A stretch of DNA of 64,000 nt, from assembly GCF_002214545.1 (NCBI RefSeq), contig NZ_CP015105.1:1736001-1800000 (forward strand). The letters run 5' to 3'. Numbering within the stretch: position 1 is the first letter of the stretch; each line of letters starts with the position of its first letter. Below are positions 982-8,375 of this stretch, in pieces. The translations under genes and the position numbers were made by a program. Source of the DNA: Thermococcus thioreducens (GTDB lineage: Archaea; Methanobacteriota_B; Thermococci; Thermococcales; Thermococcaceae). The notes under the pieces were generated by a model. That model saw nothing but the letters and a program-made list of their open reading frames with translations. It made no database searches and was not told where the DNA came from.

Positions 982-1422
982 TTGCGTCTTATCGAACGGG
1001 TGGAGCAAGTGGGTGACGAAATAAAGGGAAAGCTTAGGTGGACGGAAGGAACCCAGTTCATTGGAAGGATAGAGGGTGAAAGTTGCGCGGTGGTTCTCGG
1101 GGAAGGGGGAATAAGCCCAATGAAGCTCCTCCTTCTCAGCGTCGCCGGGTGCACGGCCTATGATGTCGTCATGATACTCCAGAAGATGCGAGAGCCGATT
1201 AGAGGCCTGGAGGTCGAGATAATCGGCGAGAGGCGCGAGGAGCACCCCCGCATATACCGAAAGGTTCACATCCACTACAGGATTTACGGCGACGTGAGCA
1301 AGGAGAAGGCGAAGCGCGCCATAGAGCTGAGCCAGGACAAGTACTGCTCCGCCTCGGCCCATATAAAGCTCAGTGGGGCAGAAGTTACATACTCCTTCGA
1401 GATAATTCCCGGCAAAGCTTAG
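982..1422 (+). CDS. OsmC/YhfA-family protein
   Basis: A 146-residue protein of the OsmC superfamily, whose characterised members are thiol peroxidases acting on organic hydroperoxides. The central helix carries the first expected Cys in VAGCTAYDVV, and a second Cys lies about 60 residues later in DKYCSAS, as in the two-Cys active site of the family. GEGGISPMKLLL is the typical segment before the first Cys. The start used is TTG at 982; in-frame GTG codons at 1000 and 1009 are alternatives. The enzyme would be cytoplasmic. The peroxidase role is a family inference; the YhfA subgroup is not well characterised. Confidence 0.85.
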   Translation: MRLIERVEQVGDEIKGKLRWTEGTQFIGRIEGESCAVVLGEGGISPMKLLLLSVAGCTAYDVVMILQKMREPIRGLEVEIIGERREEHPRIYRKVHIHYRIYGDVSKEKAKRAIELSQDKYCSASAHIKLSGAEVTYSFEIIPGKA

Positions 1423-1469: not shown

Positions 1470-2111
1470 TTGCTTGAGTACCTGAAATACTTCGTGCTGC
1501 TCTACGGTGGGCTGTTTGCAATAACGAACCCGGTCGGAGCCGTCCCCGTCTTTCTGAGCGTTACCCATGACCTGAGCTGGGAAGAGAGGCGCGAAATAGC
1601 GACAAAGACCGCACTGACGGTGGTGGTGACCCTCGTGGTCTTCGCCCTCATTGGGGAGTGGATATTCAGGTTCTTTGGTTCGAGTGTTGACGCCTTCGCG
1701 ATAGCCGGAGGTATTTTGCTCTTCAAGATGGCAATGGATATGCTCTCCGGAAGGCTCTCGACGGTCAAGATAAGCAGGGAAGAAACTGAGGAGTTCAGCG
1801 AGGACGTCGTCACCCTGGAGGAGGTCGCCATAATACCCCTCGCTATACCCCTTATCTCTGGCCCGGGAGCGATAACGACGGTCATGCTCTACATGGCCAA
1901 GAGCCGCGAGGTTCCCGAGAAGGCGGTAGTTATAGCCAGCATTCTTGCAATAGGAATAACCGTCTGGCTCACCCTCTGCTCCTCGAACAGGATACAAAAA
2001 CGGCTGGGAAGGGTGGGCATCAAAGTGCTGACGAGGATGATGGGTCTGATACTGACCTCCATGGCTGTGCAGATGATAATCAACGGCATTAAGGGGGCGT
2101 TTGGGCTCTGA
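1470..2111 (+). CDS. MarC-family integral membrane protein (SnatA-like)
   Basis: A 213-residue hydrophobic protein with about six membrane segments and the MarC (UPF0056) signatures NPVGAVPVFLSVT near the N-terminus and PLAIPLISGPGAITTVM in the middle. A Thermococcus member of this family, SnatA, was reported to transport small neutral amino acids such as glycine, so transport is plausible, but the substrate here is unproven. The start is TTG at 1470, 5-8 bases after a GGTGG ribosome-binding site. Transcription is co-directional with the OsmC gene upstream, though a 47-bp gap may hold a separate promoter. Confidence 0.88.
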   Translation: MLEYLKYFVLLYGGLFAITNPVGAVPVFLSVTHDLSWEERREIATKTALTVVVTLVVFALIGEWIFRFFGSSVDAFAIAGGILLFKMAMDMLSGRLSTVKISREETEEFSEDVVTLEEVAIIPLAIPLISGPGAITTVMLYMAKSREVPEKAVVIASILAIGITVWLTLCSSNRIQKRLGRVGIKVLTRMMGLILTSMAVQMIINGIKGAFGL

Positions 2112-2217
2112 CCTTCCCTTCTTTAAGTCCCCATTTAGAGCAGGGGTGGGTCAGAGCCTGTTTGGAACCACAAACACCCTTTTAAACTCCCCCTCCGATA
2201 TTCCCACGGTGTCCAAA

Positions 2218-2499
2218 ATGCGCGGGGACCTGATCCGTGTTCTAAGCACGATAGAGGAGAAGGCTAACGAGCTGAAGCTCGACGGCTACGAGCCGGACGT
2301 GGTTCTGCTCGGAAAGAAGGCCTACGAGTTCATAAGGGAGCAGCTCAACGAGGAGTTTGGCGACGAGGAGGAGGTTTTCGAGCTCTCCGGGCTCAAGATA
2401 CGTGTGGTCGAGGAGCTGGAAGGCGATGCAGTTGTCGCAGACAGCAAAAACCTCGGGCTCGGCCCCGGTGGTGCAAAGAGGTTTAAGGTCGTCCTATAA
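2218..2499 (+). CDS. DUF1884-like small protein with HK97 A-domain features (family 4 encapsulin-like)
   Basis: A 93-residue protein beginning MRGDLIRVLS. After an N-terminal helix it shows the pattern of a HK97 capsid A-domain: YEPDVVLLGKKAYEFI (a 'where the subunit is known to sit' strand-helix), then LSGLKIRVVEEL and a closing strand DAVVADSKNLGLG. Pyrococcus DUF1884 proteins of this size, from memory including the P. furiosus PF0899 structure, were reclassified as truncated 'A-domain' family 4 encapsulins. The assignment here is by pattern, not by search. A TATA-like TTTTAAAC at 2180-2187 sits about 30 bp before the ATG, so the gene probably has its own promoter. A longer in-frame reading from 2101 crosses that promoter and was not used. 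No obvious cargo enzyme is adjacent. Confidence 0.6.
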   Translation: MRGDLIRVLSTIEEKANELKLDGYEPDVVLLGKKAYEFIREQLNEEFGDEEEVFELSGLKIRVVEELEGDAVVADSKNLGLGPGGAKRFKVVL

Positions 2500-3409
2500 C
2501 CCCCCACACCTTTCCGTTTCTGATTTCCATCCTGAGTCCCCGCAGGACGAGCAGGCTCAGCGAGACTGCCATTATATCGGCGAGACTGCCGGGATTCCTT
2601 AAATCGCCCTCCTCTCGCATGAAGGCGTCAAACTCCTGCAGGGAAAGATTTCCGTTGAGAACTTCCCTGGCTTTTCTCCTCACGAGATCGGCCTCCCTCC
2701 TTCCAGCCTTCCTCATTATGAGCGTGTCCTCCTTCTCAGCCAGGAGCTCAAGGAATGCCTCCACAACCGCATCCTCAAGCGGGAGCTCCTTTATCAGCCC
2801 GTAGAGCCGCCCAAAGGTTGAATAGCTCAGGTCGTAGCCGTTGATCCACTCACAGAAGATGAGCTCCCTTTCACAGCTCATCTCCGCCAGCCGGGCAAGG
2901 TTTATACCGTCCCGGAAGAGCTCCCTGAATGACTCGTCACTGTAAACGTCGTACTTAACTCCGCTGGGGATTCCTTTGGGGTTTGCTATCCTTATCGCCC
3001 GGTAAAGCTCCATCGTATCCCGAACCGTCGATTCTTCTATCAGGAGCCTCGCCTTCTCCCGAGCATCGAGAATGTTGCGGCCCACTGTCAGCCCCATTAT
3101 GAGGGGCACCGAAAGGGCTATGACGCCAAAATTCGGGTTAGCGTCCTGGGCCTCACGCGAGGCCTGAACCGCGCGTTTTATCAGCTCCCCTATGCCAGCC
3201 TCACTGAAGGATATGATGCCCTTTCGCAGGAGTTCGGCCGTCTTCACGGCCTCGTAGTAGACCCCGATGACCGCTGTATCAGCGAACAGGAAGTTGTAGA
3301 TGGTCAGATCCCCGAAGTCCCGGTAGCGGTTCACGTTGCCGGGCTTCGGAACCGTCGCCTCAAGGAGGGGGCCGAGGATGAAGGCACGGACTATCTTAAA
3401 GCGCTCCAT
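2483..3409 (-). CDS. CitG-like triphosphoribosyl-dephospho-CoA synthase family protein
   Basis: A 308-residue all-alpha protein of the CitG family. In bacteria CitG makes the prosthetic-group precursor of citrate lyase from ATP and dephospho-CoA. Seen here are the N-terminal LLEATVPKPGNVNRYRDF motif, typical of CitG/MdcB, and the helical core. No citrate lyase or malonate decarboxylase gene is visible nearby, so the physiological product is uncertain; archaeal members form a separate branch. It ends 17 bp inside the convergent DUF1884-like gene. Its ATG at 3409 directly follows the stop of the small membrane gene upstream, so it is the last gene of the PspC operon. Confidence 0.75.
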   Translation of the reverse strand: MERFKIVRAFILGPLLEATVPKPGNVNRYRDFGDLTIYNFLFADTAVIGVYYEAVKTAELLRKGIISFSEAGIGELIKRAVQASREAQDANPNFGVIALSVPLIMGLTVGRNILDAREKARLLIEESTVRDTMELYRAIRIANPKGIPSGVKYDVYSDESFRELFRDGINLARLAEMSCERELIFCEWINGYDLSYSTFGRLYGLIKELPLEDAVVEAFLELLAEKEDTLIMRKAGRREADLVRRKAREVLNGNLSLQEFDAFMREEGDLRNPGSLADIMAVSLSLLVLRGLRMEIRNGKVWGVIGRP

Positions 3410-7436: not shown

Positions 7437-7945
7437 TCAGCCGTAACTTGTGTAAAGTGCGTAAGCCTCGTTACGGCTGACCTTCCACCCTCCCATCTTC
7501 ATCGGCCGGCTTTCGGGGGGAACGGTGACTCCCCACATCTTCAAGGCCCTCAAACGAATATTCCAAGAGCCGACCACATCCCTGTCAGCCTCAAACCCAC
7601 ACTTGCATTTCAAAACCCTGTGCCCATTCGGGCTTAGTTTCTCCCCACATACCGGGCACAGGGAGGAAGTGTAAGCGGGATTAACGAAAACAACCCTAAC
7701 GCCCTTTAATTTCGCCTTGTATTCGATAATGCTCTGAAGCTTCCTAAAACTCCAGCGGTGAAGACGACCATTTATTTCGGCAGAATACCTAATTGAGTCC
7801 CTGATTTCCGTTAAATCCTCCAAGGCGAGGCCACCGTATTTTTCCGCCAGCTCGACGATTTTATTCGCAAGTTTATGATACAAGTCGTTAAGCGTGTTCT
7901 TCTCCCTCTCGCCGTATTTTTCGAGGAGTTCTTCCCTCTTCCTTC
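7437..7945 (-). pseudogene. C-terminal remnant of an IS605/IS607-type TnpB
   Basis: The frame covers only the end of a TnpB RNA-guided nuclease: a helical segment (LLEKYGEREKNTLNDLYHK), the canonical RuvC-II region GGLALEDL, a four-Cys zinc finger (CPVCGEK ... CKCG) and RuvC-III ADRDVVGSWNI. The N-terminal half with RuvC-I is missing. At about 7940-7950 the frame passes directly into the 5' part of an ATPase gene in another reading frame, so the two remnants are fused by deletion. No matching TnpA is seen. This copy differs in family from the intact TnpB at 13891: it keeps the usual RuvC-II glutamate and all zinc-finger Cys. Confidence 0.85.
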
Positions 7946-8200
7946 CAGCCCGAACCTCTCCACGAATTCGGTAAAGTTGTGAATGCCAGCAAAGTTTGAA
8001 TAAACCGCGGGTTTACCCGTTGTGGAAGAATAGTGGGTTGCGAACGCCCTCGCGAGGCTGGTCTTCCCAACGGCCCTTGGTCCTATGATCGCCGCCCACC
8101 GTTTCTTTCCGAGGACAAGCTGATGCAACTGGGAAACTTCCTTCTCCCTGCCATACAACTCCTCAACTTTAATTATCGGGGTTTCTGGAAAGGGTTTCAT
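7940..8200 (-). pseudogene. N-terminal remnant of an archaeal AAA ATPase
   Basis: The first about 85 codons encode the start of an archaeal-type ATPase: KVEELYGREKEVSQLHQLV, then Walker A GPRAVGKTS. The protein then runs into the TnpB remnant and loses Walker B, the sensor and the C-terminal domains. The ATG at 8200 follows GGTGGATG and a minus-strand TATA-like CTTAAATAC (around 8240), so the promoter may still work and give a short product. A complete relative lies at 20835-22181. The breakpoint at about 7945 marks a deletion or insertion by the TnpB element. Confidence 0.8.
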
Positions 8201-8375
8201 ACCATCCACCACATTTTTTAAGATTAAAAAATCTGGTATTTAAGTGTTTTGAAGCTTTGAAATGGCCTAAGAGATGATTGGAAAGCCCATTACAGAGGAC
8301 TTTTAACGTGCTCAAAAAATTGGGTAATAATGAACATTAAGATTCATACAAAATCCAAAGGAGCGAGCGAAACCC

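Follow-up and report, generated by a model that had tools for sequence, protein, structure and literature searches.

A free-standing HK97 A-domain gene (Family 4A) of Thermococcus thioreducens lies in a published OsmC-type locus and is preceded by a conserved promoter-like sequence

What does a capsid A-domain do when it is encoded alone, and do the genes around it name its partner? The question is posed by a short gene (4A hereafter) in a 64,000-nucleotide stretch (the window) of the 2.066 Mb genome of T. thioreducens. Of the encapsulin families, Family 4 is understood least, and most of the case for its proposed cargo enzymes comes from gene order.

The open reading frame is real, and ends with a stop codon at 2497–2499 (Table 1). 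Its ATG is the correct start because homologues begin at the same MRGDL; a 132-residue frame opening with TTG at position 2101 was rejected on this ground as a mere mechanical extension. The protein scored 158.9 bits (3.1e-47, cut-off 90) with the NCBIfam model NF041190, 'family 4A encapsulin nanocompartment shell protein', and 106.9 bits (6e-31, cut-off 31.4) with PF08967 (DUF1884, now ENCP4), and fell under the respective cut-offs of the 4B and 4C NCBIfam models. At 93 residues (about 100 expected) it consists of the A-domain only, with the inter-helix loop and, in an alignment with 4B, without the 4B-type C-terminal extension. The gene is an already known member of the catalogued Family 4A A-domain encapsulins. 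A first-pass annotation had named a 93-residue protein of the DUF1884 type related to 2PK8, and the profile match bears this out, as does 2PK8 itself, the sole significant solved relative by sequence (6.8e-28, residues 2–92). Purifying selection on 4A is strong (dN/dS median 0.10, maximum 0.23, 101 pairs), and 22 columns are invariant in an alignment of 44 4A sequences.

Table 1. Features of the 4A locus (window coordinates).
Feature	Position	Strand	Basis
OsmC-family protein (PF02566, 5.6e-16), published candidate enzyme partner	982–1422	+	profile search; exact start codon uncertain
MarC-family membrane protein (PF01914, 1.8e-62; NAAT family by NCBIfam)	1470–2111	+	profile search
Putative archaeal promoter: A-rich BRE-like CAAACACCC (2171–2179) and TATA-like TTTTAAA (2180–2186)	2171–2186	+	sequence, conservation, published geometry
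Shine-Dalgarno-like GGTG ahead of the 4A start, kept in most relatives	2208–2211	+	sequence, conservation; Thermococcus GGDGRD motif
4A A-domain encapsulin-like gene (ENCP4/PF08967, NF041190), 93 aa	2218–2499	+	ORF, profile matches, predicted fold
CitG-family protein, convergent with 4A	2483–3409	-	profile search

An AlphaFold2 model of 4A built with 44 relatives (mean pLDDT 88.4) has a helix at residues 2–21, a strand at 28–31, a helix at 33–47 and strands at 59–63, 70–74 and 86–90. Its top Foldseek match in the PDB was 2PK8, which is the Family 4A protein PF0899 of Pyrococcus furiosus (E 8.4e-12, TM 0.96, rmsd 0.8 angstrom, 54% of structurally aligned residues identical). The leading matches after 2PK8 were nearly all HK97-fold capsid proteins, the best being HK97 Prohead II (probability 0.99, TM 0.58, E 0.03). 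Each capsid E-value is weak when taken alone; the support lies in capsids making up nearly all of the top matches. HK97 gp5 was not detectable from the 4A profile at the sequence level (hhalign probability 0.2), so the link to HK97 is one of fold. This miss would also fit another small alpha/beta fold that resembles the HK97 A-domain no more than superficially, as would a weak profile match to KtrA (E 0.0035). However, KtrA was absent from the top 50 Foldseek matches, which past 2PK8 are led by capsids, and PF08967 was placed in the phage-coat clan CL0373 in 2021 (PMC8346489); we regard a different fold as very improbable. The weak profile matches to KtrA, cloacin-immunity and PSF1 proteins were all without support from the fold search. 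As modeled, 4A has the HK97 A-domain fold, like 2PK8. The strand-helix and closing-strand layout given in the first-pass annotation thus stood, as did its expectation of an HK97-like structural match: 2PK8 came first, and capsid A-domains were the runners-up.

The A-domain fold is common to 4A, HK97-fold phage capsids and Family 1–3 encapsulins, but 4A lacks all other HK97 domains as well as any sequence-level match to these proteins. Measured against the full HK97 fold of a strict encapsulin, it has neither E-loop, P-domain nor N-arm. The genome encodes no Family 1 encapsulin (PF04454). In the literature we found, no icosahedral shell with cargo loaded via a targeting peptide has been published for Family 4, and 'encapsulin' in the strict sense of shell plus cargo is not established there for any Family 4 protein. 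Viral contigs, phage records and plasmid records contained no relatives of 4A, and viral contigs scanned with gp5 yielded close relatives of gp5 only. Among viral proteins, the one that matched the 4A model best by fold was A0A127AW84, an uncharacterised 128-residue protein of Bacillus phage SP-15 (E 5.4e-4, TM 0.68), which outscored whole capsid proteins. SP15_096 of the same phage (L142:44161-44547) has this length and a similar stretch (GYRPDTVILGEVEYKKL versus GYEPDVVLLGKKAYEFI; hhalign probability 83), and from length and shared stretch only we take the two to be one protein. Several further BFVD fold matches were phage proteins of 76–130 residues; phages, too, may encode A-domain-like proteins that stand alone.

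Next to 4A, the gene order turned out to be a familiar one. MarC lies directly upstream, as first noted, with its stop 106 bases before the 4A start. The first-pass annotation saw no enzyme partner on either side and called the context unusual; neither statement survived, as OsmC shares the strand of 4A and lies upstream with MarC between the two, a CitG-family enzyme occupies the other flank, and OsmC, MarC and 4A in one direction are what a 2021 paper describes as the OsmC type of locus (PMC8346489). A reading of 4A as an orphan A-domain encapsulin was rejected for the same reason. Among 55 4A loci surveyed for neighbors, of which those on short contigs may miss some, OsmC was near 4A in 33, MarC, a common neighbor, in 27 and HydA in 8 (one genus only); five had none of the three nearby. 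The window shares with the Family 4A OsmC type (Andreas and Giessen, 2021; PMC8346489; NF041190; PF08967) its sequence family, length, inter-helix loop, HK97 A-domain fold, OsmC-then-MarC order upstream on one strand and, in the genome as a whole, a second copy of the 4B kind, and is a standard example of it. Nothing essential differs; here there is spacing between the three genes and a promoter belonging to 4A itself, a feature on which the published operon description is silent (PMC8346489). Cysteines 57 and 122 of the OsmC protein appear to be at the places expected for the OsmC catalytic cysteines. The tails of 4A and the CitG-family gene overlap by 17 bases (2483–2499), and, once the hydrogenase-linked genus and its sister are set aside, this convergent gene is the most constant neighbor that 4A has, overlapping it tail to tail by 8–26 bases at 46 of 46 loci. 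Elsewhere in the window, a minus-strand ORF at 7437–8212 looks, as read by eye, like a TnpB-type transposon protein in its C-terminal portion (CPVCG...CKCGFEADRDVVGSWNI); it overlaps a short archaeal-ATPase-like ORF, and both seem truncated by eye.

We then turn to the sequence directly ahead of 4A. TTTTAAA sits 38 bases before the ATG. In published Thermococcus maps, TATA is about 20–30 bases ahead of the start site with BRE just upstream, 5' leaders have a median length of 12 bases, and the ribosome site reads GGDGRD (PMC4247193, PMC5316973); the sequence in the window is in keeping with each of these. A TATA-like box starting 35–43 bases before the start codon was present in 50 of the 55 4A loci, against a mean of 5.8 and a maximum of 10 in dinucleotide shuffles and 2–10 when 20-base segments elsewhere in these upstream regions were counted; the pattern was picked after inspecting upstream sequences, a bias that these two controls reduce and do not remove. 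The remaining five loci, strict misses, have CCTTAAA at the same place. The box is kept with OsmC 33–71 bases off, with MarC in between, with the hydrogenase about 40 bases upstream and with no known partner. A control set of 24 DeoC-linked 4B loci with DeoC called had no such box. The claim of an own promoter made at first pass therefore held, with both TTTTAAA and GGTG kept across the family. From this conserved promoter sequence we infer that 4A probably has a transcript of its own. Thermococcus genomes often carry internal promoters (PMC4247193), and the 4A promoter is compatible with read-through from MarC or OsmC.

Does OsmC nevertheless reveal the function of 4A? According to the published hypothesis, OsmC-MarC-4A is a true operon in which 4A is a dedicated scaffold or compartment of OsmC, shielding a peroxide-reducing enzyme (PMC8346489). 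Strand and order in the window are those of the published type, OsmC lies directly upstream of 4A at 33–71 bases in 15 loci from three further genera, and of the 74 good-quality genomes 73 have an OsmC gene, many of them at a site apart from 4A. However, the 4A promoter is conserved even where OsmC is this close. Of the 41 larger loci that do not belong to the hydrogenase genus, 32 had OsmC linked to 4A, and precisely these 32 also had the opposite-strand radical-SAM gene that lies beyond OsmC; CitG was linked in all 41. OsmC is therefore near 4A no more than a gene unable to share its transcript, and its linkage looks like background gene order. In addition, four loci in the window's own genus keep 4A near neither OsmC nor MarC, and the hydrogenase-linked genus keeps it though its OsmC lies elsewhere. 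On the point of an operon with an upstream hydrogenase or OsmC, the window has evidence on both sides: OsmC and MarC precede 4A as in the published type, with OsmC the second gene upstream, but there is also a conserved own promoter and background-level linkage. As a whole, we consider the hypothesis of 4A as dedicated partner of OsmC in a true operon unlikely. By position OsmC is a candidate partner of 4A, at a position that background gene order predicts as well. A C-terminal loop (GLGLGGAKR or GYAPA) considered as covarying with loss of OsmC linkage was discarded as not clean, GYAPA being found in two OsmC-linked loci too. In a Thermococcus subset, a secreted or membrane-like protein of about 285 residues (cluster c17), sometimes in tandem, sits between MarC and 4A (loci L040, L034, L066, L051, L071, L064, L044 and L069).

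The context of PF0899 differs from that of the window, with a hydrogenase nearby and not OsmC-MarC. In another reading, 4A might serve the cytosolic [NiFe] sulfhydrogenase I wherever it is encoded, with the adjacency in one genus revealing the true relation. HydA ends 38–42 bases ahead of the 4A start in seven of the eight hydrogenase-linked loci, and the window's genome has a HydA orthologue (80% identical), about 810 kb from 4A. The linkage is nonetheless limited to that genus and absent in its sister (L088), and all eight of these 4A genes have a TATA-like box of their own. At the locus whose 4A is nearly identical to 2PK8 (L082), HydA is 2.6 kb off with four opposite-strand genes in between, so this locus cannot be one operon. 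We judge a general hydrogenase partnership improbable, even more so than the OsmC operon.

The distribution of the family is broad within Thermococcaceae. ENCP4 proteins were found in 92 of 94 genomes, including all 74 of good quality, mostly in two copies, whereas the phylum set had none in genomes outside this family. The copies fall into two clades, 4A with the inter-helix loop and 4B without it and with a C-terminal extension; 4B belongs to the same fold family (DeoC and GAPDH types), and NF041191 gives a weak match. One 4A plus one 4B, of the OsmC and DeoC types, was reported by Andreas and Giessen, 2021 (PMC8346489). The second copy in the window's genome is a 4B (G000:C1:2048274-2048501) of the published DeoC-4B pair type, overlapped by 17 bases by the gene for DeoC (deoxyribose-phosphate aldolase), which was identified from sequence and the published pairing. 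The DeoC-4B overlap is 4–32 bases in the 24 DeoC-linked loci, where, in contrast to 4A, no promoter was seen. A proteomics study, as cited in PMC8346489, describes a stable complex of GAPDH with its A-domain protein; this complex concerns 4B and is the sole biochemical partner in the literature we found. The T. kodakarensis interactome paper did not mention Family 4 proteins under the terms searched.

Taken together, we put the probability at roughly 0.7 that 4A is a free-standing HK97 A-domain with a family-wide housekeeping role, transcribed from its own promoter and working as a small homo-oligomer that scaffolds, caps or protects a partner. Thermococcaceae would keep this standalone copy of a capsid A-domain as a housekeeping protein; the BRE/TATA promoter just upstream would allow it to be transcribed alone, with a short 5' leader carrying the GGTG ribosome site. 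The product would probably form a small homo-oligomer: 2PK8 crystallised as a dimer, and a published hypothesis has these proteins self-assemble into pentameric facets or larger (PMC8346489), with a five-fold ring as the guess. Such an oligomer would scaffold, cap or protect some other protein and would not be a closed shell. Both oligomerisation and the scaffold role are suggested by the fold and by 2PK8. More tentatively, and at somewhat less than even odds, 4A may be independently expressed and not bound to any operon, with OsmC and hydrogenase as incidental neighbors and its partner encoded elsewhere or 4A acting alone; the published classification by operon type would then have to be dropped.

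As a gene, 4A is ordinary: its family is known and its context is published. The overlapping DeoC-4B pair is the better-supported operon and a better first target than 4A. The promoter and synteny results are a modest addition and correction, which weakens the inference of partners for Family 4A: with a conserved promoter in every context and OsmC linkage at the background level, the partners of 4A must be found biochemically.
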